59,535 bases of DNA from Acidobacteriota bacterium. Its GTDB lineage: Bacteria > Acidobacteriota > Vicinamibacteria > Vicinamibacterales > UBA8438. This document shows, piece after piece, positions 17,934 through 59,535 of this stretch (position 1 is the stretch's first letter; every line of letters begins with the position of its first letter). The notes beneath the pieces are model-generated. The model had not been told where the DNA came from, ran no database searches, and worked only from the letters and a program-made list of their open reading frames with translations. The stretch is from NCBI GenBank assembly GCA_009861545.1, contig VXME01000107.1, positions 1-59,535 of the forward strand, given 5' to 3'. The position numbers and the translations under genes are program-made.

Positions 17934-17963
17934 ACATGGCGATTATCATGATAATCGCCATGT
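17934..17963. repeat. 30-nt perfect palindrome over the DUF4143 gene start
   Basis: ACATGGCGATTATC at 17934-17947 and its flush complement up to 17963 form a perfect 30-nt palindrome with no spacer. It contains two ATG codons (17936, 17960) in the frame of the following gene. As DNA it is a strong dimer-binding site; as RNA it would form a long hairpin burying the start codon. Confidence 0.8.
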
Positions 17964-19129
17964 CTTTCGGCGGTGAACCGCACGTTCCGCGCTGTCTCGA
18001 TCTGGCGCGCCTGCTCGCCCGGCGCTCCGTGTTCCTGTTCGGGCCGCGACAGACCGGGAAGTCCACCTACGTCCGGCGGCAACTCGCCGGCACGGTAGAA
18101 CTGTCCTTTTCACTGCTCGACCAGGGACTGCTCACGGACGTTCTCGCCGACCCCACGCGGATCCGGAAGGAGATCGCGGCCCGCGATCTGCGTGACACGG
18201 TGATCTGTATCGACGAGATCCAGAAGTGCCCGGCGCTCATGGACGAGGTCCACTTGATGATCGAGGAACGCGGCATCCGCTTCCTCCTCACCGGATCGAG
18301 CGCACGCGCCCTCAAGCGCAAGGGCGTCAACATGCTCGGCGGGCGCGGCAGCGACCGGGTGATGCACCCGTTCTCGTGGTTCGAGCTCGGCAAGCGCTTC
18401 TCCCTCGACCGCGCGATCAACCACGGCCTCCTTCCGCCGCACTACCTGTCGGACGACCCGGACGAGGGTCTGGCGTCGTACGTCGACCGCTACCTCACCG
18501 AGGAGATCGCCGCCGAGGGCCTCGCCCGCAACCTGCCGCGGTTCGCCCGCTTCCTCCAGACCGCGGCGACCACCAACGCGCAGATGCTCAACTACTCCAA
18601 CGTCGCACGCGACGCGCAGGTGCCGCGCCAGACCGTCGTGCAGTGGTACGAGGTGCTGCGCGACACGCTCATCGCGTTCGAGCTGCCGGCCTGGTCGAGA
18701 ACCGTCAAGCGCAAGGCGATCGAGACCGCCAAGTTCTACTTCTTCGACACGGGCGTGGTCCGCGCCCTGCGCCGGCTGCCGCCGGTCAGCGAAGCGTCAG
18801 CGGACTTCGGCGAGTTCTTCGAGCATCTCGTCTTTCTGGAGCTCCGCGCCTGGATCGACTACCGCAGGCCGCGCACGCCTCTCGCCTATTGGCGCTCGCG
18901 ATCAGGCTACGAGGTCGACTTCATCCTCGACGACCGGATCGCCATAGAAGTGAAGGCGACGCGGCGGGTCCAGCAGAAGCACCTGCGGAGTCTGCGGGCC
19001 CTCGACGACGAACGGCTCATCGAACGACCCATCGTCGTCTGCCGCGAGGAGCGGCCGCGCATCGAGAACGGTATCGAGATCTGGCCGCTGGAGTTCTTCC
19101 TGGCGGCTCTGTGGAACAAGGGCCTGTGA
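17960..19129 (+). CDS. DUF4143-type AAA ATPase with PD-(D/E)XK-like C-terminus
   Basis: 389 residues from the ATG at 17960; another in-frame ATG at 17936 would put the palindrome's translation at the N-terminus. Order: Walker A FGPRQTGKST at about 27-36, Walker B VICIDEIQK near 80, sensor-like FLLTGSSARALKRKG near 110, then DUF4143 with FARFLQTAATTNAQMLNYSN and a helix-turn-helix-like region near 215-240. The end has a nuclease-like core, EVDFILDDRIAIEVKAT, near 317-332. The family is widespread, often horizontally transferred and functionally undefined. It is the first of three accessory genes in a row. Confidence 0.85.
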   Translation: MSFGGEPHVPRCLDLARLLARRSVFLFGPRQTGKSTYVRRQLAGTVELSFSLLDQGLLTDVLADPTRIRKEIAARDLRDTVICIDEIQKCPALMDEVHLMIEERGIRFLLTGSSARALKRKGVNMLGGRGSDRVMHPFSWFELGKRFSLDRAINHGLLPPHYLSDDPDEGLASYVDRYLTEEIAAEGLARNLPRFARFLQTAATTNAQMLNYSNVARDAQVPRQTVVQWYEVLRDTLIAFELPAWSRTVKRKAIETAKFYFFDTGVVRALRRLPPVSEASADFGEFFEHLVFLELRAWIDYRRPRTPLAYWRSRSGYEVDFILDDRIAIEVKATRRVQQKHLRSLRALDDERLIERPIVVCREERPRIENGIEIWPLEFFLAALWNKGL

Positions 19130-49026: not shown

Positions 49027-50205
49027 ATGGCATTCGATCTGTCGGCGATTCAGCGGGCGCTCCGCGAGGACGGACTCGACGGCTGGCTCCTCTACGACTT
49101 TCACGGATCCAACCCCATCGCGCGCCGGGTAACAGGCCTTGGCGGTAGCGGCAAACTGACGACGCGACGCTGGTACTACCTCGTCCCCGCGTCCGGCGAG
49201 CCGCGCGCCCTCGTGCACGGCATCGAGCGGCACAGTCTGGCGCATCTTCCCGGAAGCCGGCGGATCTACGCGGGACGCAACGAGCTGGAAGCGGGTCTGG
49301 ACTCCCTCGTGCAGGGCATGCGCCGCATCGCGATGGAGTACTCGCCGAACTGCGCGATTCCCTACGTCTCGCGAGTGGACGCCGGGACCGTCGAACGCAT
49401 CCGTTCGCTGGGCGCCGACGTAGTGTCCTCCGGCGACCTCGTACAACGCTTCGAAGCCGTCTGGGACGACGGGGCGCTCGCGAGCCACCGCACCGCATCC
49501 CGGCATCTGCACAGCATCAAGGACCGCACGTTCGAGCTGATCGCCGACCGCGTCGGCGGGGGTTCGTTGACCGAGTACGCGGTCCAGCAGGTGATGACCG
49601 AGTGGTTCGCGGACGCGGGGCTGCTCACCGACTGCCCGCCGGTGGTGGCCGCTCAGGAGAGCAGCGGAAACCCCCACTATCTGCCCACCGCGGAGGCACA
49701 TCGTCCCATCGGACGCGGGCAGGTGGTCCTGCTCGACCTGTGGGGCAAGATCGACAAGCCGGGCGCCGTGTACGCCGACATCACGTGGGTCGGCTTCACC
49801 GGCTCCCAGGTGCCGCCCAGGGCCGCCGCCATCTTCGGTGCAGCACGCGAGGCCCGCGACGCCGCCGTCTCGCTCGTCGCCGAGCGGGTGCACGCCGGGC
49901 GACCGATCAGCGGCTGGGAGGTGGACCGCGCCGCGCGGGACGTGATCGACGCCGCGGGCTACGGCGACCGCTTCATGCACCGCACCGGCCACAGCCTCGG
50001 CGAGGAGGTCCACGGCAACGGCGTGCACATGGACGACTACGAGACGCACGATGAGCGGCGGCTCATCGCCGGCACCGGGTTCACGATCGAACCCGGCGTC
50101 TACCTGGACGACTTCGGCGTTCGGACCGAGATAAACGTGTACGTGGACGCCGCCGACGCCGCCGTGACCGGTCCGCGGCAGGCGGAAATCGTCCCGCTGG
50201 CATAG
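49027..50205 (+). CDS. M24-family metallopeptidase (Xaa-Pro aminopeptidase-like)
   Basis: 392 residues with the creatinase/aminopeptidase-P fold. Metal ligands are visible in order: Asp in VVLLDLWGKID, Asp in VYADITWVG, His in MHRTGHSLGEE, Glu in FTIEPGVYLD and Glu in GVRTEINVYVD. The N-terminal creatinase domain covers about the first 160 residues. There is no signal peptide, so it is cytoplasmic. TACGGT lies 8 nt before the ATG with no Shine-Dalgarno. The upstream stretch 48747-49026 shows no gene. Confidence 0.88.
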   Translation: MAFDLSAIQRALREDGLDGWLLYDFHGSNPIARRVTGLGGSGKLTTRRWYYLVPASGEPRALVHGIERHSLAHLPGSRRIYAGRNELEAGLDSLVQGMRRIAMEYSPNCAIPYVSRVDAGTVERIRSLGADVVSSGDLVQRFEAVWDDGALASHRTASRHLHSIKDRTFELIADRVGGGSLTEYAVQQVMTEWFADAGLLTDCPPVVAAQESSGNPHYLPTAEAHRPIGRGQVVLLDLWGKIDKPGAVYADITWVGFTGSQVPPRAAAIFGAAREARDAAVSLVAERVHAGRPISGWEVDRAARDVIDAAGYGDRFMHRTGHSLGEEVHGNGVHMDDYETHDERRLIAGTGFTIEPGVYLDDFGVRTEINVYVDAADAAVTGPRQAEIVPLA

Positions 50206-50307
50206 CTTGCCCCGCGCCCGCCCGCGGGAAGCCCGCGTCAGGCCGCAACCGCGTTACACTTGGAGTCGATGCGAGGGATGCGGGTGCTCGCCCCGCTGGA
50301 GGAAATG

Positions 50308-51822
50308 ATGTCGCGATCGAGGACCACATTCGTTTCCACGCTGTTGATTGCCGTGACCGCCATGGCGGTCGGGATGGTGATTGCGTCGCGCTTCAACCTG
50401 GCTCCGCCATCGGCGGCGCAGTCCGTTCGGGCGCCCATTCCGAACACCTCGCCGATCTCCGGCAATCTGACCGCAACGACGTTCCGCGAGATCGCCGACG
50501 CGCAGACGGCGATGGTCGTGACCATCTGGACCCAGCAGCCGCGGCAGCAGGGGAACATGAACGAGTTCTTCGGCGGCGACGAGTTCTTCCGCCGGTTCTT
50601 CGGACAACCGCCGGAACGCGAGGCGCCGCCCGAGGACAACGACACCACCCGGCCGGCGGCGACCGGAACGGGATTCGTGATCGACCGCGCCGGCCTGATC
50701 CTGACGAACAACCACGTCGTCGAGAACGCCACGAGCATCGAGATCCACTTCTTCGGCGACGACGACGACGAGCGCTACGAGGCGCGGGTGCTGGGCCGCG
50801 ATCGCCTGACCGACAGCGCGCTGCTCGAGCTGGTCGAGCGACCCGACCGGGAGCTGCCCGTGGCGACGTTCGGCGATTCGGGTCAGATGGCGCCGGGCGA
50901 CTGGGTGATGGCGATCGGGGCCCCCTTCGGCCTCAGCCATACGGTCACCGTCGGGGTCATCTCGGCGCTCGCCCGGCCGCTGCCCTCGGCCCCCGGCCGC
51001 AGCAACGAGATGCTGCAGACCGATGCCGCAATCAACCCGGGCAACTCCGGTGGACCGCTCCTGAACATCCGCGGCGAGGTGGTCGGAATGAACACGGCGA
51101 TCATGAGCGACCGCCGGTCCAACGCGGGTGTCGGTTTCGCCGTGCCCATCAACACCGTGCGCGATCTGCTCGACGAGCTCCGCGGCGGCAAGGTGACGCG
51201 CGGCGTGATCGGCATTCAGATTCGCGATGTCCCGAGGGACGAGTACGCCGTGCTCGGACTCGACGAACCCCGCGGCGTCATCGTCTCGCTGGTCAACCCG
51301 GACGGGCCCGCGGACCAAGGCGGCATGCAGCCCGCAGACGTGGTGGTGGCCTACGGCGGGGAGCCCGTGGAGGACACCCGGGACCTCCAGAGCCGGGTCG
51401 TCGCCACCCGGCCCGGAACGACCGTGCCGATCGACGTCGTTCGCAACGGTGAACCGCTGACTCTCGACGTCACCATCGGCGAGCTCGACCTCGAGGCGGA
51501 GAGCCGCAACGTGATGGCCGCGGCCGAAGAGACCAGCGAGGGCTTCGGCATCACGCTTCAGGACCTGACGCCGCCGATGGCCCGCCGCCTGCGCGTGCCG
51601 GCGGACACGGTCGGCGCGGTGGTCGTCGACGTCCAGCGCGGCAGCACGTCGGAAGCAGGCGGCCTGCAGCCCGGGGACGTCATCCTCAGCGTCAACCGCG
51701 TCGACGTCGAGTCGGCCAGCGAGGCGAGCGCCGAGCTGGGCGAGATCGAGTCGGGACGGACCGCGTTCCTCCTGGTGCAGCGCCGCGACACACGCGTCTT
51801 TCTGCAGGTGGAGAAGGAGTAG
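50308..51822 (+). CDS. degP: HtrA/DegP-type serine protease with two PDZ domains
   Basis: 504-residue envelope quality-control protease. A membrane anchor or signal lies at residues 1-28 (TFVSTLLIAVTAMAVGMVIA). The protease domain has His in LILTNNHVVENATS, Asp in LGRDRLTDSALLEL and the nucleophile in INPGNSGGPLLNIRG. Two PDZ domains follow (RGVIVSLVNPDGPADQGGMQ; VGAVVVDVQRGSTSEAGGLQ). The second of two adjacent ATGs (50305, 50308) is chosen, with GGAGG 5 nt upstream. TACACT at 50255-50260 is a likely -10. Confidence 0.92.
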   Translation: MSRSRTTFVSTLLIAVTAMAVGMVIASRFNLAPPSAAQSVRAPIPNTSPISGNLTATTFREIADAQTAMVVTIWTQQPRQQGNMNEFFGGDEFFRRFFGQPPEREAPPEDNDTTRPAATGTGFVIDRAGLILTNNHVVENATSIEIHFFGDDDDERYEARVLGRDRLTDSALLELVERPDRELPVATFGDSGQMAPGDWVMAIGAPFGLSHTVTVGVISALARPLPSAPGRSNEMLQTDAAINPGNSGGPLLNIRGEVVGMNTAIMSDRRSNAGVGFAVPINTVRDLLDELRGGKVTRGVIGIQIRDVPRDEYAVLGLDEPRGVIVSLVNPDGPADQGGMQPADVVVAYGGEPVEDTRDLQSRVVATRPGTTVPIDVVRNGEPLTLDVTIGELDLEAESRNVMAAAEETSEGFGITLQDLTPPMARRLRVPADTVGAVVVDVQRGSTSEAGGLQPGDVILSVNRVDVESASEASAELGEIESGRTAFLLVQRRDTRVFLQVEKE

Positions 51823-51868
51823 GGGTCCGCGCCGCAGAAGCGGTGCAGACTCGCCGCGGCGTGGCCGG

Positions 51869-53038
51869 ATGCACGAGATGACGCTGCGGGAGGTGATCCG
51901 GGAGCGGATCCGGACGGAGGGTCCGCTGCCGTTCGCCGCCTTCGCCGAGTTGGCCCTCTACCATCCCGAGCTGGGTTACTACGCCCGCGTCGACCGGCGA
52001 TCCGGCCGCGCGGGCGATTTCTTCACCAGCGTCGACCTCGGTCCCGCGTTCGGCTCCCTGCTGGCGTCGCAGCTCGCCGAGATGTGGCGCATCCTGCGGT
52101 CCGGATCCGGCGACCCGCGGTTCGACCTGGTCGAGGCCGCCGCCGGCAACGGGCGGCTCGCACGCGACGTGCTCGACGCCGCCGCTGCCGACGACCCTGC
52201 CTTCTATCGCGCCATCCGGCTGCACCTGGTCGAACCGAGCCGGGCCGCGCGCGACGCGCAGGCGGCCACGCTCGGCCCCCACGCGGACAAGGTGGCATCG
52301 TCGGGCTCCCGCATTCCACCCGCGATCCGCGGAGCCGTCTTCGCGAACGAGCTGCTCGACGCGCTCCCGCCGCATGTGCTGGAAATGACCGCCGGCGGAC
52401 TCCGGGAGGCATACGTCGACCTCGACCACGCGACCGGCGATTTCGCCGAGCGCCTCGGCCCGCTGTCGGAGGCGAGCCTGCAGCACGTTCGCGACCGGAA
52501 CATCCGGCTGGAGTCGGGATGGCGAGCCGAGGTCGTACCGGCCGCTGCCGACTGGGTGCGGCGGGCCGTCGACGCCCTCACCCGGGGATTCCTGCTGCTC
52601 GTCGACTACGGCCACGAGGCGCGGGAGCTCTACTCCGCGACCCACGCCGCGGGAACGCTGACGACCTACCGGCGGCAGCGCAGCGCAGCCGCCGGCGACG
52701 GCGCCGCGCCGCCGTGGCTCGTCGATCCGGGAGAGTGCGACATCACCGCGCACGTCGACCTGACGCTCGTGCGCGACGCGGCCGAGGATGCCGGCGCGCG
52801 CACGCTCGGCGTCCTCGACCAGACCTACTTCCTGCTGGGGCTCGGGGCGGTCGAGCGGATGAATCACGCATCGCGCGAATCGCCCGACGGCGGCGTCGCC
52901 GCTCTCCGGCGCCGTCTGGCTCTGAAGTCCCTGCTGGTGCCCGGCGGACTCGGCAGCACCCACAAGGTGATGCTCTTCGGCAAGCACGTCGGGACGCCGT
53001 CCCTGGCGGGTTGCTCCTATCGCGTCCGCGCAACGTAG
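51869..53038 (+). CDS. midA: MidA/NDUFAF7-family SAM-dependent methyltransferase
   Basis: 389 residues. Matches the SAM-dependent methyltransferase family whose eukaryotic member NDUFAF7 methylates an Arg of complex I. Family blocks: GPLPFAAFAELALYHPELGY at the N-terminus, GRAGDFFTSVDLGPAFGSLL, FDLVEAAAGNGRLARDVL as the SAM motif, and GAVFANELLDALPPHVLEM. Start ATG 51869 or 51878. Its target in bacteria is unproven. It begins a co-directional run with CYTH, murU, amgK and asnS. Confidence 0.85.
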   Translation: MHEMTLREVIRERIRTEGPLPFAAFAELALYHPELGYYARVDRRSGRAGDFFTSVDLGPAFGSLLASQLAEMWRILRSGSGDPRFDLVEAAAGNGRLARDVLDAAAADDPAFYRAIRLHLVEPSRAARDAQAATLGPHADKVASSGSRIPPAIRGAVFANELLDALPPHVLEMTAGGLREAYVDLDHATGDFAERLGPLSEASLQHVRDRNIRLESGWRAEVVPAAADWVRRAVDALTRGFLLLVDYGHEARELYSATHAAGTLTTYRRQRSAAAGDGAAPPWLVDPGECDITAHVDLTLVRDAAEDAGARTLGVLDQTYFLLGLGAVERMNHASRESPDGGVAALRRRLALKSLLVPGGLGSTHKVMLFGKHVGTPSLAGCSYRVRAT

Positions 53039-53057
53039 AATTCCAGCGGGACAACCG

Positions 53058-53627
53058 ATGAGCGATCGCATCGAGCGTGAGATCAAGCTGTCGTTCGCCT
53101 CGGCCGCTGCCGCCCGCGAGGCGGTGGCCGCGCTCGGGGCGATCCGGCTACGCCCGCGTCGCCTGCAGGACGACCGCCTTCTCGATACGAGCACCGGCCG
53201 GCTGCGCGCCGAGTGGTGCACGTTGCGCGTGCGCATGGAGGCGCCGGACGCCGGCGGGGAGAGCGTCGCCACTCTCACCTTCAAGGGACCGCCGCGACCC
53301 GACGTCATGAAGGTCCGCGAAGAGGTCGAGACCGACGTCGGCGACGGCGCGGTGTTGCTCCGGGTCCTCGAACGAGCGGGGTTCGACGTCTGGTTCCGCT
53401 ACCAGAAGTACCGCGAGGAGTTCGACCGGGACGGCACGATCGTCGCCATCGACGAGACGCCGTGCGGAGTCTTCGTCGAGCTCGAGGGCAGCGAGGCGGG
53501 CGTGGCGCGCCTCGCGCAGGCGCTCGGCCGCGGTCCCGCCGACTACATCACGGCGTCCTATCGTCGCGTGTGGGAGTCGGACTGCGCCGCCCGCGGACGC
53601 CCGGTCGGCGACATGGTCTTCGAGTAG
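53058..53627 (+). CDS. CYTH-domain phosphohydrolase-like protein
   Basis: 189 residues. The N-terminal EREIKL is the ExExK signature of CYTH enzymes (class IV adenylate cyclase, thiamine triphosphatase, inorganic triphosphatase). Further acidic and basic tunnel residues are seen in LRVRMEA, ATLTFKGPPRP, KVREEVETDV, RYQKYREEF, IDETPCGVFVELEG and the terminal ITASYRRVW. It is most likely a triphosphatase or cyclase; substrate cannot be told. A TAG or GTG junction links it to the next gene. Confidence 0.85.
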   Translation: MSDRIEREIKLSFASAAAAREAVAALGAIRLRPRRLQDDRLLDTSTGRLRAEWCTLRVRMEAPDAGGESVATLTFKGPPRPDVMKVREEVETDVGDGAVLLRVLERAGFDVWFRYQKYREEFDRDGTIVAIDETPCGVFVELEGSEAGVARLAQALGRGPADYITASYRRVWESDCAARGRPVGDMVFE

Positions 53628-53638
53628 TGCCCGACGCG

Positions 53639-54631
53639 ATGGCCGGCCCGCTGCCTCCCGCCCTCGTACTCGCGGCCGGGCTCGGAACGCGTCTCCGCCC
53701 CCTGACCGACCTTCGCGCGAAGCCGGCGGTGCCGGTCGCCGGCCGGCCGCTCGTGACCCGCATCCTGGAATGGCTGGCGGCCCAGGGCGTCGCGGAAGTC
53801 GTCCTCAACCTGCACCACCGGCCGGAGACGATCACACGGTTGGTGGGCCACGGGGAGGCTGCCGGCGTGCGCGTGCGCTACTCCTGGGAGCCGGTCATCC
53901 TCGGTTCCGCCGGCGGTCCGCGGCAGGCGCTGCCGCTGCTCGGCTCGCGCTTCTTCGTCGTCAACGGCGATACCCTGACGACCCTCTCGCTTCGCGCGCT
54001 CGCCGAGACCCACGCGTCCGCCGGCGCCGCGGTCACCCTCGCCGTCGCCCCGCATCCGGCCCCGGACCGCTACGGCGGCGTGCTCGTCGCGAGCGACGGC
54101 CGCGTGCGCGGCTTCGTGAGGGCCGGCCTCGGCGCGGCCGCTCACTTCGTCGGTGTGCAGCTCGTCGAGGCGGCCGTCTTCGCGGATCTGCCCGCCGGCC
54201 GGCCCGCCGCCACCATCGGCGGCATCTACGACCGGCTGCTGGCCGTCCCGGACGACGAGCGGCCCGGAAGCATCCGGGCCCACAGGTGCGGGGACGACTT
54301 CCTGGACGTCGGGACGCCGGCGGACTACCTGGCCGCGTCGCTCGCCGTCGCCCGGCGCGAGGGATGCGAGGCGCTGCCGGTCGGCGCCGGGTCGACGATT
54401 CACCCGTCGGCCTCGCTCGAACGCACGGCGGTCTGGGACCACGTCCGCATCGGCGCCGACTGCCGGCTCGACCGTTGCATCGTCGCCGACGGCGTCAGTC
54501 TGCCGCCCGGGACGGTGCTGCGTCGTCGGATCTGCGTGCCCGCCGACGCGGCGGCAAGCCCGGAAGGCGCAAGCACGGCAGGCAACGCGAGCGTCTACCC
54601 TCTCGACGACCCTCCCGGCGCGGACCGATGA
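53639..54631 (+). CDS. murU: Sugar-1-phosphate nucleotidyltransferase, MurU-like
   Basis: 330 residues. The nucleotidyltransferase motif is LVLAAGLGTRLRPLTDLRAK, followed by FFVVNGDTLTT (metal Asp) and DDFLDVGTPADYLAASLAVA. The C-terminal part adds left-handed-helix-type hexapeptides (STIHPSASLERTAVW, HVRIGADCRLDRCIV), which makes it longer than Pseudomonas MurU. The stop overlaps the start of the AmgK-like kinase (ATGA). That pairing is the basis for calling it MurU, which makes UDP-MurNAc from MurNAc-1-P. A mannose- or glucose-1-phosphate enzyme remains possible. A GTG at 53627 is an alternative start. Confidence 0.72.
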   Translation: MAGPLPPALVLAAGLGTRLRPLTDLRAKPAVPVAGRPLVTRILEWLAAQGVAEVVLNLHHRPETITRLVGHGEAAGVRVRYSWEPVILGSAGGPRQALPLLGSRFFVVNGDTLTTLSLRALAETHASAGAAVTLAVAPHPAPDRYGGVLVASDGRVRGFVRAGLGAAAHFVGVQLVEAAVFADLPAGRPAATIGGIYDRLLAVPDDERPGSIRAHRCGDDFLDVGTPADYLAASLAVARREGCEALPVGAGSTIHPSASLERTAVWDHVRIGADCRLDRCIVADGVSLPPGTVLRRRICVPADAAASPEGASTAGNASVYPLDDPPGADR

Positions 54632-55647
54632 CGGACCCGCCCCGACCTGCCGACACACCGGAATCGCGCGCCAGAGCGTGGCTGCGCAGTGCCGGTCTGC
54701 CGCCGTCGACCCGTCTCGCGCCCCTAGCGGGAGACGCATCCGACCGCCGTTTCGTGCGTGTCGTTCCGCCTGGCGCGCCGTCGCGCGTCCTCGTCGTGCA
54801 CGACGGTCCGATCGACCCCGAGACGCTGCCACTCATCCGGGTGGCCGAACTGTTCCGCCGCCTTCCCGTGCGGGTGCCCGTCATCCACGGAGCGGACGCG
54901 GCGCTGGGAATCGTCGTCGTCGAGGATCTCGGCGACACGATGCTGGAGGACGCCGTCGCCACGCTGCCGGACGACGAGCGGCGCGCGCGCTACCGGGAAG
55001 CGGTAGAGATCGTCGCGGCGATTCAGAGCGGCGGACGCCGGCTTGCCGGGTCCGACGCCGGTCCCTTCGACTTGGCTTTCGATGTCGCCAAGCTGATGCA
55101 GGAGCTCGACTTCTTCGTCGAGCACTTCGTCGTCGGCTTCCGGCGCCACAGCCTCACGACGCCGGCGCGGCGCGCCCTGGGCGAAGAGTTCCGCGCTCTG
55201 GCCTCGGACATGGCGGCCGAGCCGCGGGTGCTCTGCCACCGGGACTTCCACAGCCGCAACCTGATGGTGCACGAGGGCCGGCTGCACGTCATCGACTTCC
55301 AGGACGCGCGCATGGGCCCGGACACCTACGATCTGGTGTCACTGCTCCGGGACGCCTACGTGGCGCTGGACGCGGACGAGGTCGACCGGTTGATCACCCA
55401 CTACGAGACCATCGCCGGCGTACAGGATGGCGCGCGGCTGCGACGACGCTTCGCCCGCACGACGGTGCAGCGAGCCCTCAAGGCGCTGGGGACGTTCGGA
55501 TTTCAGATCGCCGCCCGCGGGAACCCGCGCTACCGCGACGCGGTGCCCCGCACGTTGGGATACGCGCGGGCGGCGATCCGGCAAGACCCTGATCGGCGCC
55601 GTCTGGGCTACCTTCTGGGCGCCGTGCTGGGGGACGCCGCCTCGTAG
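54628..55647 (+). CDS. amgK: AmgK-like anomeric MurNAc/GlcNAc kinase (APH fold)
   Basis: 339-residue aminoglycoside-phosphotransferase-fold kinase. It reads like Amg[19 protein letters not shown] for the nucleotide site, [30 protein letters not shown], the catalytic loop [15 protein letters not shown] and the metal motif [20 protein letters not shown]. AmgK phosphorylates MurNAc at C1, and MurU then makes UDP-MurNAc, recycling cell-wall sugars without the de novo steps that fosfomycin blocks. Coupled by an ATGA overlap to the murU-like gene. Confidence 0.8.
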
Positions 55648-55663
55648 TACCCTACGAACGAAG

Positions 55664-56965
55664 ATGGAAGCGACCACGACGACCATCGAGGCGATTGCCG
55701 ACCACGTCGGCCGGGAGATCGCCATCCGCGGATGGCTGCAACGGCGGCGCTCGAGCGGAAAGATCCACTTCCTCACCCTGCGTGACGGAAGCGGGTTCGT
55801 GCAGGCCGTGGTCTCGAAGGCCGCCGTCGGCGACGAGACGTTCACCCGCGCCGACCACCTCGGCCAGGAGACGTCGCTGGTCGTCGAAGGGACGGTCCGG
55901 AAGGACGCGCGCGCCCCGGGCGGCTACGAGATCGACGTGTCGACTCTCGCCGTGGTCGGCGAGTCGCACGACTACCCGATCACCCCCAAGGAACACGGCG
56001 TCGACTATCTGCTCGATCGGCGTCACCTGTGGATCCGCAGCCGGCGGCAGGCGGCGATCCTGCGCGTGCGGCACGAGGTCGTCGACGGCATCCGCGATTT
56101 CCTCAACGGCCGCGGCTTCATCCTGGCGGACACGCCCATCTTCACGCCGGCCGCCTGCGAAGGTACGACGACGCTGTTCGCCGTTCCGTACTTCGACCAC
56201 GCGACGGCCTATCTCACGCAGAGCGGTCAGCTCTACAACGAGGCCAACGCGATGGCGCTGGGGCGGGTCTACTGCTTCGGGCCGACGTTTCGCGCCGAGA
56301 AGTCGAAGACGCGGCGGCATCTGACCGAGTTCTGGATGGTCGAGCCGGAGATGGCCTACGCCACTCTCGACGACGCCACGGACCTGGCGGAAGCGCTTGT
56401 CGTCTCCATCGTCGAGCGCGTGCTCGAACGGCGAGCCCGCGAGCTGGAGGTCCTCGAACGGGACACGGCGGCGCTCGAGCGGGTGCGCTCTCCATTCCCG
56501 CGCATCGCCTACGACGAGGCGGTCGAGATTCTCAAGACACGCGGCCTTCCGTTCGAGTGGGGCGGGGACTTCGGCGGCCCGGACGAGACGGCTCTGGCCG
56601 GACACTTCGACCGTCCGGTCGCCGTGCAGCGCTTTCCCGCCGCGATCAAGGCCTTCTACATGAAGCCGGATGCCGAGCGGCCGGAGCTGTCGCTGTCGGT
56701 CGACGTGCTCGCCCCGGAGGGCTACGGGGAGATCGTCGGCGGCGGGGAGCGTCTGGACGACTATGCGCTGTTGCTCGAACGGATTCGCGAGCACGAGCTG
56801 CCGCAGGAAGCATTCGAGTGGTACCTGGACCTGCGGCGGTACGGGAGCGTGCCGCATGCGGGTTTCGGCATGGGCGTCGAGCGTGTCGTCGCGTGGCTGT
56901 GCGGGCTGGAGCACATTCGCGAGACCATCCCGTACCCGCGCATGCTGTATCGCCTGACGCCATAA
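55664..56965 (+). CDS. asnS: Asparaginyl-tRNA synthetase
   Basis: 433-residue class II aminoacyl-tRNA synthetase. The N-terminal OB anticodon-binding domain ([20 protein letters not shown]) is followed by the catalytic core: [20 protein letters not shown] (motif 1 region), [20 protein letters not shown] (motif 2) and [20 protein letters not shown] (motif 3). ACEGTT and [12 protein letters not shown] favour Asn over Asp specificity. TACCCT lies 10 nt before the ATG with no Shine-Dalgarno. Confidence 0.93.
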
Positions 56966-56978
56966 CGGCCGGCTTCCG

Positions 56979-56987
56979 TGATATACT
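56979..56987 (+). promoter_or_regulatory. Extended -10 (TGATATACT) of the rimP-nusA-infB operon
   Basis: TGATATACT starts 13 nt after the asnS stop. Transcription would begin near 56994, about 20 nt before the hairpin at 57016. Confidence 0.5.
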
Positions 56988-57015
56988 CTGTCGGCTACGA
57001 GAGACGAAGTGCTGC

Positions 57016-57048
57016 AGAAGTGGGCGTTTCGCCCACTTCTTTGTGTTT
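57016..57048 (+). terminator. Terminator-like hairpin in the rimP leader
   Basis: AGAAGTGGGCG (57016-57026), loop TTT, then CGCCCACTTCT (57030-57040): a perfect 11-bp stem followed by TTGTGTTT. It is the only good intrinsic terminator shape in the window. It lies downstream of the TGATATACT promoter and 39 nt before rimP, so it may end asnS transcripts and also act as an attenuator of the operon. Confidence 0.65.
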
Positions 57049-57087
57049 CAGGGCGCAGTTGCCGGGCGAAGGCGGGGTAGAGACAGG

Positions 57088-57615
57088 GTGAAGCCCGGTG
57101 AAGGCCGGGTTGCGCAGGTCTGGTCCATCGCGGAGCGGGTGGCCCGCGACTTCGGGCTCGATGTCTTCGACGTCCAGCTTCAGCGCGAGTCGGTGGGGTG
57201 GCTGTTGCGAGTCGTCATCGACCGGGCGCCGGGCGCGGCCGGCGAGGCAGGCGACGCTGCGGCCGAAGCGGTTACCCTCGACGATTGCGCGCGGGTGAGC
57301 ACGGACCTGAGCGTGGTGCTCGACGTCGATTTCGACTTCGAGCATCCGTACACCCTGGAAGTGTCCTCGCCGGGCCTCGACCGCCCGTTACGGCACGTGG
57401 ACGACTGCCGGCGCTTCCGAGGTCGGCTCGCCCGGTTCGTGACGTCGGAAGCCGTCGACGGACAACGCTTCATTTGCGGGCGGATCGCCGGGGTCGAGCC
57501 GGAGAGCGGCGAGCCGCCGGCGCAGGCGGCACTCGTCGTGGTGACGGCAGGACGGCGCGTCCACCGCATTCCGTGGGCGCTTGTGACGCGGGCTCGACTG
57601 GAAGTGGAGTTGTGA
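57088..57615 (+). CDS. rimP: Ribosome maturation factor RimP
   Basis: 175 residues from a GTG. RimP helps assemble the 30S subunit. The N-terminal domain shows FGLDVFDVQLQRESVGWLLR, LDDCARVSTDLSVVLD and HPYTLEVSSPGLDRPLR, the family signature; the C-terminal SH3-like domain follows. There is an insertion of about 15 Ala/Gly/Glu residues after VVIDRAPG. It precedes nusA by 40 nt, the universal order. The frame has no ATG, and a weak AGG precedes this GTG. Confidence 0.9.
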   Translation: MKPGEGRVAQVWSIAERVARDFGLDVFDVQLQRESVGWLLRVVIDRAPGAAGEAGDAAAEAVTLDDCARVSTDLSVVLDVDFDFEHPYTLEVSSPGLDRPLRHVDDCRRFRGRLARFVTSEAVDGQRFICGRIAGVEPESGEPPAQAALVVVTAGRRVHRIPWALVTRARLEVEL

Positions 57616-57655
57616 AGTCGTCGCGCGGGCAGGAGCCTGCGCGCGAGAACAGGTC

Positions 57656-59035
57656 ATGAGCAATCCGCTGCAACAGACCATCGAGGCACTGGCCAAGGAG
57701 AAGGGCATCGAGCCGGACGTCATCGTCACGGCTATCGAGGACGCGGTGCTGACCGCCTCGCGCAAGTACTACAAGTCGACCGAGAACCTGCGGACCAAGT
57801 TCAATCACGAGACGGGCCAGGTAGAGCTGTTCTCGGTGCGCCAGATCGTCGAGGAAGTCACCGATCCGCTGACGGAGATCTCGCTTGCGGAGGCCCAGGA
57901 GCTGTACGGGGACGAGGCCGAGGTCGACATGGAAATCGAGTTCCCCAAGCCGACCGACGTGCTCGGGAGAATCGCCGCGCAGACCGCGAAGCAGGTGATC
58001 TTCCAGAAGGTGCGCGAGGCGGAACGCGACAACGTCTACGCCCTCTACAGCGACCGCGTCAACGAGGTCATCAACGGCACGGTCAAGCGGTTCGAGAACG
58101 GCGACATCGTCGTCGACGCCGAGCGCGTGGAGGCGCTGCTTCCGCGGCGGGAGCAGTCGCGCGCCGAGAACTACACGACCGGCGACCGCATCCGGGCGGT
58201 CATTCGCGAGGTCAACAAGAACACCAAGGGACCGCAGATCATCCTGTCGCGCACCGACCCCACGCTGCTGGTCAAGATGTTCGAGCAGGAAGTGCCCGAG
58301 ATCTACGACGGGACGGTCACCATCCGCGGAGCGGTCCGCGAGGCCGGCGACAGGGCCAAGGTCGCCGTCCATTCGCGCGAGCGCGACGTCGACCCGGTCG
58401 GCGCCTGCGTAGGAATGAAGGGCACGCGGGTGCAGGCGATCATCCGGGAATTGCGCGGCGAGAAGATCGACATCGTCGAATGGTCGGATGATCCCGTCGT
58501 CTTCGTCACCAACGCCATCAGCCCGGCCAGGGTGCAACGGGTGACCGTGGTCGACAGCGAGGAGCCGATCGTCGAAGTGGTCGTGGAGGATCGCCAGCTT
58601 TCGCTCGCGATCGGCAAGAAGGGCCAGAACGTCCGCCTGGCGGCCAAGCTGACCGGCTGGAAGATCGACATCAAGAGCGAGGAAGAGAAGCGGCGTGAAG
58701 TGGAAGCCCGGTTCGACGAGATCGAAGAGGACGAGGAGGCCGGCACCCTCACGCTGCCCGGACTCGACGACGGGCAACTCCTGCGGCTGAGCGAGGCGGG
58801 ACTGGACACGGCCGACCGCCTGCTGGAGGTCGCAGCGGCCGAGCTGGCCGAGGTGGCGGGCGTGGACGAGGCAACGGCCGGGGATCTGCAGGCCGCCGTG
58901 CGCGAGCAGGTCGACGCTGCCGCAAGAGCCGCCCGGGCGCCCGACGAGACCGATGATTTGTCGACGATCGATCCGGCGGGGACGACGCCCGAAGCGCCGG
59001 CGGACACGCCCGGCGAGACACCGACAGCGGAGTGA
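57656..59035 (+). CDS. nusA: Transcription termination/antitermination factor NusA
   Basis: 459 residues. Order: N-terminal RNA-polymerase-binding domain (about 1-130, AIEDAVLTASRKYY), S1 domain with NGTVKRFENGDIVVDAERV, KH1 with RERDVDPVGACVGMKGTRVQ, and KH2 with LSLAIGKKGQNVRLAAKLTG. A helix-hairpin-helix C-terminal region (LPGLDDGQLLRLSEAGLDTA) and an acidic Thr/Pro tail follow. NusA controls pausing, termination and antitermination, and in E. coli it represses its own operon. The hairpin in the rimP leader is a natural target for such control here. Confidence 0.95.
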   Translation: MSNPLQQTIEALAKEKGIEPDVIVTAIEDAVLTASRKYYKSTENLRTKFNHETGQVELFSVRQIVEEVTDPLTEISLAEAQELYGDEAEVDMEIEFPKPTDVLGRIAAQTAKQVIFQKVREAERDNVYALYSDRVNEVINGTVKRFENGDIVVDAERVEALLPRREQSRAENYTTGDRIRAVIREVNKNTKGPQIILSRTDPTLLVKMFEQEVPEIYDGTVTIRGAVREAGDRAKVAVHSRERDVDPVGACVGMKGTRVQAIIRELRGEKIDIVEWSDDPVVFVTNAISPARVQRVTVVDSEEPIVEVVVEDRQLSLAIGKKGQNVRLAAKLTGWKIDIKSEEEKRREVEARFDEIEEDEEAGTLTLPGLDDGQLLRLSEAGLDTADRLLEVAAAELAEVAGVDEATAGDLQAAVREQVDAAARAARAPDETDDLSTIDPAGTTPEAPADTPGETPTAE

Positions 59036-59043
59036 GAGCGCCC

Positions 59044-59535
59044 GTGGGCACAATTCGCATCTACAAGATCGCCGAGGTCCTCGGGATTCCGAGTCAGGAA
59101 GTCGTCCAGTTGCTGCGTACGCAGCACGGGATCGAGGCCAAGAGCGCGTCGAGCACCGTCGAGGAGATCGTGGCCCGGCAATTCGCCGAACGGATTGCCC
59201 GCAAACGCAACGTCACCCTGCCGGCCGGTTCGCTCTTCTCGCAGCGGACCGCCTCGAAGCGCGGCGGGCGAGGCGGGGCCGCGCCGGAAGCGGCCGCGCC
59301 GACGGCGCCGAAGCTGGGGCCGCCGCGGCTGGTGAAGTCCGCCAAGGCGGCGAGAGCGGCAGCCGAGGCCACGGCGGCCGGCACCGCCGAGCCGGAGGCC
59401 GCCGGGCCGGAGAACTTGCCGGCGGGCACCGCTTCGCCGGCGCCGACAGCGGTCGAAAGCGCCGGTGCGCCAGGCGCCGGCATGTCTGCAACGACCGCGG
59501 TTTCGACGGAACCGCCCCCGCCCCCGCCCCCGGCC
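59044..59535 (+). CDS. infB: Translation initiation factor IF-2, N-terminal part (cut by window end)
   Basis: 164 codons from the GTG at 59044, running off the end of the window. It opens with the IF2_N motif RIYKIAEVLGIPSQEVVQLL, then VEEIVARQFAERIARKR, and continues into the long Ala/Pro/Glu-rich linker typical of IF-2, with a run of seven prolines near 59515. The GTPase domain lies beyond the window. It begins 8 nt after the nusA stop, in the conserved rimP-nusA-infB operon. Confidence 0.93.
   Translation, partial: MGTIRIYKIAEVLGIPSQEVVQLLRTQHGIEAKSASSTVEEIVARQFAERIARKRNVTLPAGSLFSQRTASKRGGRGGAAPEAAAPTAPKLGPPRLVKSAKAARAAAEATAAGTAEPEAAGPENLPAGTASPAPTAVESAGAPGAGMSATTAVSTEPPPPPPPA

Follow-up and report, generated by a model that had tools for sequence, protein, structure and literature searches.

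A predicted rimP-leader attenuator upstream of rimP-nusA-infB in an Acidobacteriota bacterium and its joint loss with rimP in one clade

The analyzed window is the whole stretch of 59,535 nucleotides from an Acidobacteriota bacterium of the order Vicinamibacterales, and its 3′ end carries the genes rimP, nusA, and infB downstream of asnS (Table 1). The intergenic region of asnS and rimP contains an extended -10 element, a hairpin and an interrupted U tract. The asnS stop codon is located 16 nt before the -10 hexamer and 50 nt before the hairpin, and a further 47 nt separate the hairpin from the inferred start codon of rimP.

Table 1. Features of the asnS-rimP-nusA-infB region, with positions in the window.
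Feature	Position	Strand	Basis or remark
asnS (asparaginyl-tRNA synthetase)	55664..56965	+	ORF; Pfam PF00152 (1.2e-71), PF01336
Extended -10 TGA-TATACT, TGATATACT	56979..56987	+	sequence; -10 hexamer 56982-56987
Short 5′ segment, inferred start to hairpin	56994..57015	+	length 21-28 nt across 34 loci of the order
Predicted terminator hairpin, core GUGGGC...GCCCAC, 11 bp, loop UUU	57016..57040	+	fold and comparison
Interrupted U tract UUGUGUUUC	57041..57049	+	sequence
AGGG after the U tract	57050..57053	+	G run frequent there in the order
rimP	57088..57615	+	start GTG inferred; RimP_N PF02576 (7.7e-19), PF17384
nusA	57656..59035	+	Pfam NusA_N, S1, KH_5, KH_1
infB, 5′ part, cut at the window end	59032..59535	+	IF2_N PF04760

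The hairpin is formed by the arms AGAAGTGGGCG and CGCCCACTTCT, which enclose the loop TTT and pair perfectly in 11 Watson-Crick pairs, seven of them G-C. Its RNA fold reaches -18.9 kcal/mol (z -4.6), a value equalled by none of 200 shuffles. The initial annotation had described an extended -10 followed by a perfect, GC-rich stem of 11 bp with a 3-nt loop ahead of rimP-nusA-infB, and this is confirmed from sequence and fold. It had also called the tail T-rich; T-rich it is (TTGTGTTTCA / TTGTGTTTC), and the term should read interrupted T tract. The predicted terminator of the window combines an interrupted tract (TTGTGTTT) and a terminal A-U pair with a strong 11-bp stem. A GGG occurs in the 24 nt that follow the stem at 32/34 loci of the order, 27/57 named loci and 14/57 loci of the phylum sample. 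E. coli likewise has GGGGG after its U tract. A post-transcriptional role of the hairpin in the processing or stability of the rimP mRNA is very improbable: RNase III processing sites are described for the E. coli operon in passages of PMC6511841, but the stem is followed immediately by a conserved T tract, which fits termination better.

An ORF for an AAA_14/DUF4143 ATPase (17936-19129) has its start codon inside another inverted repeat of the window, the perfect 30-nt palindrome ACATGGCGATTATCATGATAATCGCCATGT (17934-17963), which may serve as an operator or form a hairpin at the start codon. The genome of origin holds a single exact copy of the inner 22 nt of this palindrome and one further site with three mismatches.

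Stems of this length also arise by chance. A generic terminator scan of positions 50000-59535 returned 2 sites with 2.7 expected, and of 10 versions of the whole window generated by a Markov model, 4 contained a stem of at least 11 bp with a loop of 3-5 nt, so that the stem by itself is not decisive within 59 kb. It is lifted above chance by its conservation in relatives. RimP_N was detected in 34 of 40 genomes of the order, including the genome of origin, and a hairpin with GGG in the 5′ arm and CCC in the 3′ arm precedes rimP at all 34 loci. The check proposed in the initial annotation, a search for the same hairpin in related genomes, thus had a positive outcome throughout the rimP loci of the order.

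For a wider comparison, 179 distinct rimP leaders were compiled, consisting of 34 from the order, 75 named leaders (from 80 named NusA matches) and 70 from the phylum, the latter being the new ones among 78 rimP-bearing genomes in a sample of 89 genomes. Left out of the counts were two loci with identical leaders, one with too little upstream sequence, three in which no rimP was found, and the second, below-cut-off match of one genome. A terminator finder that is blind to sequence scored at least 26 in 159/179 leaders, compared with 14/358 dinucleotide shuffles and 28/1438 other stretches of the same loci.

Five genomes of the order, listed as 90-100% complete, yielded neither RimP_N nor NusA in the whole genome, and the operon is probably missing from these assemblies. 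Two further loci come from contigs whose titles name an Actinomycetes bacterium and Bifidobacterium breve; their NusA proteins are 71% and 67% identical to that of the window, their leaders are Acidobacteriota-like, and they are likely mislabelled bins.

No good -35 element was seen by eye at 16-18 nt from the -10 (candidates GCCATA, CCATAA, and CGCCAT), and the promoter would therefore be of the extended -10 type. The transcription start, inferred from the position of the -10, would lie at about 56994, and 28 nt separate the end of the extended -10 from the hairpin. A strong -10 located at -36 to -43 from the GGG of the hairpin was present at 32/34 loci of the order vs. 5/143 background windows. 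Outside the order, a strong -10 was found at 21/57 named and 17/57 phylum loci, at scattered positions. The lengths of the 5′ segment (Table 1) were obtained by placing the start 6 nt downstream of the -10. As far as sequences can tell, the conserved -10 argues against a start of rimP transcription downstream of the hairpin. The architecture proposed in the initial annotation, a promoter followed by a predicted terminator within the leader, is upheld by the conservation of both elements across the order and is strongly supported.

Since the asnS stop codon lies only 50 nt upstream, the hairpin could be thought to do no more than terminate asnS transcripts, the promoter of rimP being located elsewhere. 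Among the 32 loci of the order with enough upstream sequence, asnS lies upstream in 18 and is missing from this position in 14; the hairpin is present in all 32. The initial annotation had named a hairpin that only ends asnS transcripts as an alternative, which is not borne out by the 14 loci lacking asnS, and asnS termination as the sole role was rejected on these grounds. As the hairpin is also found across phyla next to other neighbors, and as the conserved -10 sits between asnS and the hairpin, there is next to no probability left for this explanation. Transcripts reading through from asnS must nevertheless meet the hairpin as well because of the short distance, and in the window it may serve both asnS and rimP.

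The leaders of the order were analyzed for competing structures. Pairing of the 5′ segment with the 5′ arm was better than in shuffled sequences in 1 of 34 leaders (p <= 0.05; mean p 0.56), and pairing of the downstream segment with the 3′ arm was so in none of the 34. An antiterminator of the RNA-switch type was rejected accordingly. The short segment appears to leave little room for an alternative RNA structure, of which no sign was seen. A leader peptide was rejected as well: in the window, a reading frame that starts with a GTG at about 57009 runs through the hairpin, yet this GTG is absent from the leaders of two relatives of the genus, which were inspected by eye. As no antiterminator was detected, regulation, if any, is probably exerted by protein.

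The stem shows a pronounced bias in sequence. GGG in the 5′ arm facing CCC in the 3′ arm was found in 144/179 leaders (order 34/34, named 54/75, phylum 56/70), and the reverse polarity in none of the 179. Of the remaining 35 leaders, 20 have no terminator that reaches the threshold, and the other 15 form a different stem, in several cases a near variant. The pair below the GGG is U-A in 116 of the 144 leaders, U-G in 22, C-G in 3, G-U in 2, G-C in 1, and A-U in none. A NusA tree built with FastTree (138 rows, of which 111 are labelled) implies 4 changes of the 5′ letter of this pair and 19 of its partner, which drifts between A and G. U-A and A-U pairs are about equal in stability, as are GGG/CCC and CCC/GGG, and stability alone is thus no explanation for the bias. 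Judging from these substitutions, the 5′ arm seems to be constrained as sequence and not merely as a stem; recognition of this arm, as RNA or as DNA, would explain the bias. A fixed, constitutive partial terminator which defines basal expression of the operon without any feedback would agree with the lack of a detectable antiterminator in the 34 leaders of the order, as intrinsic terminators can act alone. However, such a terminator need not hold one sequence and one polarity across phyla, and it is considered an unlikely explanation.

The hairpin is also tied to rimP on the scale of whole genomes. The strict motif AGTGGGCN3-8GCCCACTNTTT was found in 95/297 Acidobacteriota genomes, vs. 1/297 for a reversed control pattern, and apparently at one place per matching genome, as judged from the match listing. 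All 30 strict-motif loci which were fetched lie on the same strand as a RimP domain and 54-156 nt upstream of it. The hairpin of the window counts among the misses of this motif because its tail begins with CTTCTTT; its 9-bp core GAAGTGGGC..GCCCACTTC occurs a single time in the 6.35-Mb genome of origin.

RimP_N is absent from 52/297 genomes of the phylum. NusA was searched in 44 genomes (17 + 27) without RimP_N or from families without RimP_N, which gave 36 nusA loci. Six were dropped, three for N gaps and three with nusA at a contig end; two of the 30 loci with usable upstream sequence carry rimP and were set aside, leaving 28 loci, from nine family codes, without rimP before nusA. As 19 of the 27 genomes of the second batch were chosen by family code, some of them less than 90% complete, these loci are not a random sample. 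At 27 of these 28 loci, an exact TATAAT lies no more than 60 nt from nusA, and the TATAAT-type promoters precede the NusA match by about 11-53 nt. No terminator was found between promoter and nusA at any of the 28 loci; the one terminator detected lies at -331, upstream of the -10 of its locus. On the NusA tree the rimP-less state forms one clade with one change, and it therefore represents a single natural experiment. Read from these sequences, the clade shows an attenuator that would have gone with rimP and not with nusA. This joint loss where nusA stays counts against a purely NusA-centered reading. The NusA-controlled attenuator proposed in the initial annotation is partly supported, with strong support for the leader architecture and with control by NusA being plausible.

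The same loci are an argument for a different signal, in which read-through of the leader terminator reports RimP or the assembly state of the 30S subunit instead of the NusA level, with RimP or another assembly factor binding the nascent 5′ arm. The element tracks rimP, the rimP-less nusA loci have their own -10 with no terminator after it, and the conservation of the 5′ arm as sequence suggests a specific recognition; feedback by RimP is also mentioned as a possibility in passages of PMC2965389. On the other hand, the loss is one event and may be coincidence, and the published work, as far as the passages considered go, points at NusA. This explanation is accordingly held to be rather improbable. 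We put forward, in an equally tentative manner, that the GUGGGC 5′ arm is a recognition sequence, read by a protein of the elongation complex as the arm exits RNA polymerase, with RimP or a RimP-linked assembly signal as partner and not NusA alone. The proposal stems from the disappearance of the attenuator upon loss of rimP, with nusA acquiring a plain promoter. If true, it would be a sequence-specific attenuator shared across phyla which links the assembly of ribosomes with factors of transcription and translation.

The explanation that we regard as the probable one is a rimP-leader attenuator whose read-through is set by proteins on the polymerase, with NusA, perhaps together with NusG, lowering the expression of its own operon. 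RNA polymerase would start at the extended -10 promoter and make about 22-25 nt before the hairpin. The hairpin and the interrupted U tract would then be transcribed, upon which a fraction of the complexes would terminate, with an RNA of about 55-60 nt, and the remaining complexes would read on into rimP-nusA-infB. The terminating fraction would most likely be determined by polymerase-bound proteins. NusA, possibly assisted by NusG, would raise termination, and a surplus of NusA would thus lower its own operon. Interrupted U tracts are tied to NusA- and NusG-dependent termination in passages of PMC8060035 and PMC8745188, and the tract is interrupted in 93 of the 144 GGG/CCC leaders, which fits this class of terminators. 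The sequence comparison establishes the hairpin, the conserved promoter and its fixed spacing within the order, the operon context, the polarity of the stem sequence and the lack of a detectable antiterminator. We infer termination at the hairpin, NusA as effector and the reading of the GUGGGC 5′ arm as sequence. Counting against this explanation are the 28 rimP-less loci, as their lack of a terminator is not predicted by a universal NusA loop, the stem of the window, which is strong and not weak, and the 35/179 leaders without a recognized GGG/CCC terminator.

The element can be compared to several known systems. The Rfam family RF01770 (rimP) is a gammaproteobacterial leader with the same position in the operon and the same final hairpin motif. 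Its covariance model gave no match in the window at the gathering threshold and none up to an E-value of 10 in 56900-57200, and membership of the window leader was rejected; E. coli as positive control reached 102 bits, and 0/19 other loci matched. Since the only match among the Rfam families searched was that of this gammaproteobacterial form to E. coli, Rfam-based annotation would miss the element in genomes like this one. The sole Rfam match of the leader, on the minus strand at 57006-57043, was to RF02420, a predicted sRNA of Burkholderia, with 24 bits vs. a gathering threshold of 50. Its consensus AAAAAAAaUGGGCGaAACGCCCAuCu resembles the reverse complement of the rimP-leader hairpin, and RF02420 may be an antisense reading of this attenuator.

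Regulation by NusA is the leading, published idea for E. coli, B. subtilis, and S. agalactiae, and it is plausible for the window. The ylxS(rimP)-nusA leader of B. subtilis shares the operon and the leader position with the window, and a NusA-dependent negative feedback at the ylxS promoter is reported for it (Mondal et al., 2016, as cited in passages of PMC6200986). The S. agalactiae gbs0413-gbs0418 leader has, as predicted for the window, an intrinsic terminator close to the start and before rimP-nusA-infB. According to passages of the RNA-seq study (PMC4448216), short and long transcripts arise there from one start and feedback by NusA is suggested; termination was mapped experimentally 31 nt after the start, whereas in the window it is inferred at about 55 nt.

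The closest system is the rimP-leader, which was named as an attenuator by Naville and Gautheret (2010; PMC2965389). In the passages considered, it is described as the most ubiquitous transcription attenuator, with an unusually conserved, rimP-specific GGGc...gCCC, and NusA is proposed as its regulator from old E. coli genetics; the idea of NusA feedback is therefore not new. Its general form is given there as a short terminator in the 5′ UTR of rimP-nusA-infB, with a GGGc...gCCC stem and a U stretch, no antiterminator and a distance of 4-130 nt from the gene. The window shares the stem (AGAAGTGGGCG/CGCCCACTTCT), the position in the 5′ UTR of the same operon at 47 nt from the gene, and a U stretch directly after the stem, which is interrupted but T-rich (TTGTGTTTC); no antiterminator or larger conserved element is visible here either. 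Its 11-bp stem and interrupted U tract are not differences that would exclude it on the basis of the passages considered. By its sequence, the predicted element of the window is a rimP-leader attenuator of the general, non-gammaproteobacterial form and thus a known kind of element. What is conserved is a sequence and not merely a stem, its 5′ arm being fixed; the distance from the inferred start to the hairpin is short and constant in one order, and in one clade the element was lost jointly with rimP. The additions made here are modest and consist of features for which no prior statement was found in the passages considered, those of PMC2965389 included: the wider core (A)GUGGGC...GCCCAC(U), the bias of the 5′ arm, the fixed start-to-hairpin distance in the order, and the co-loss with rimP.
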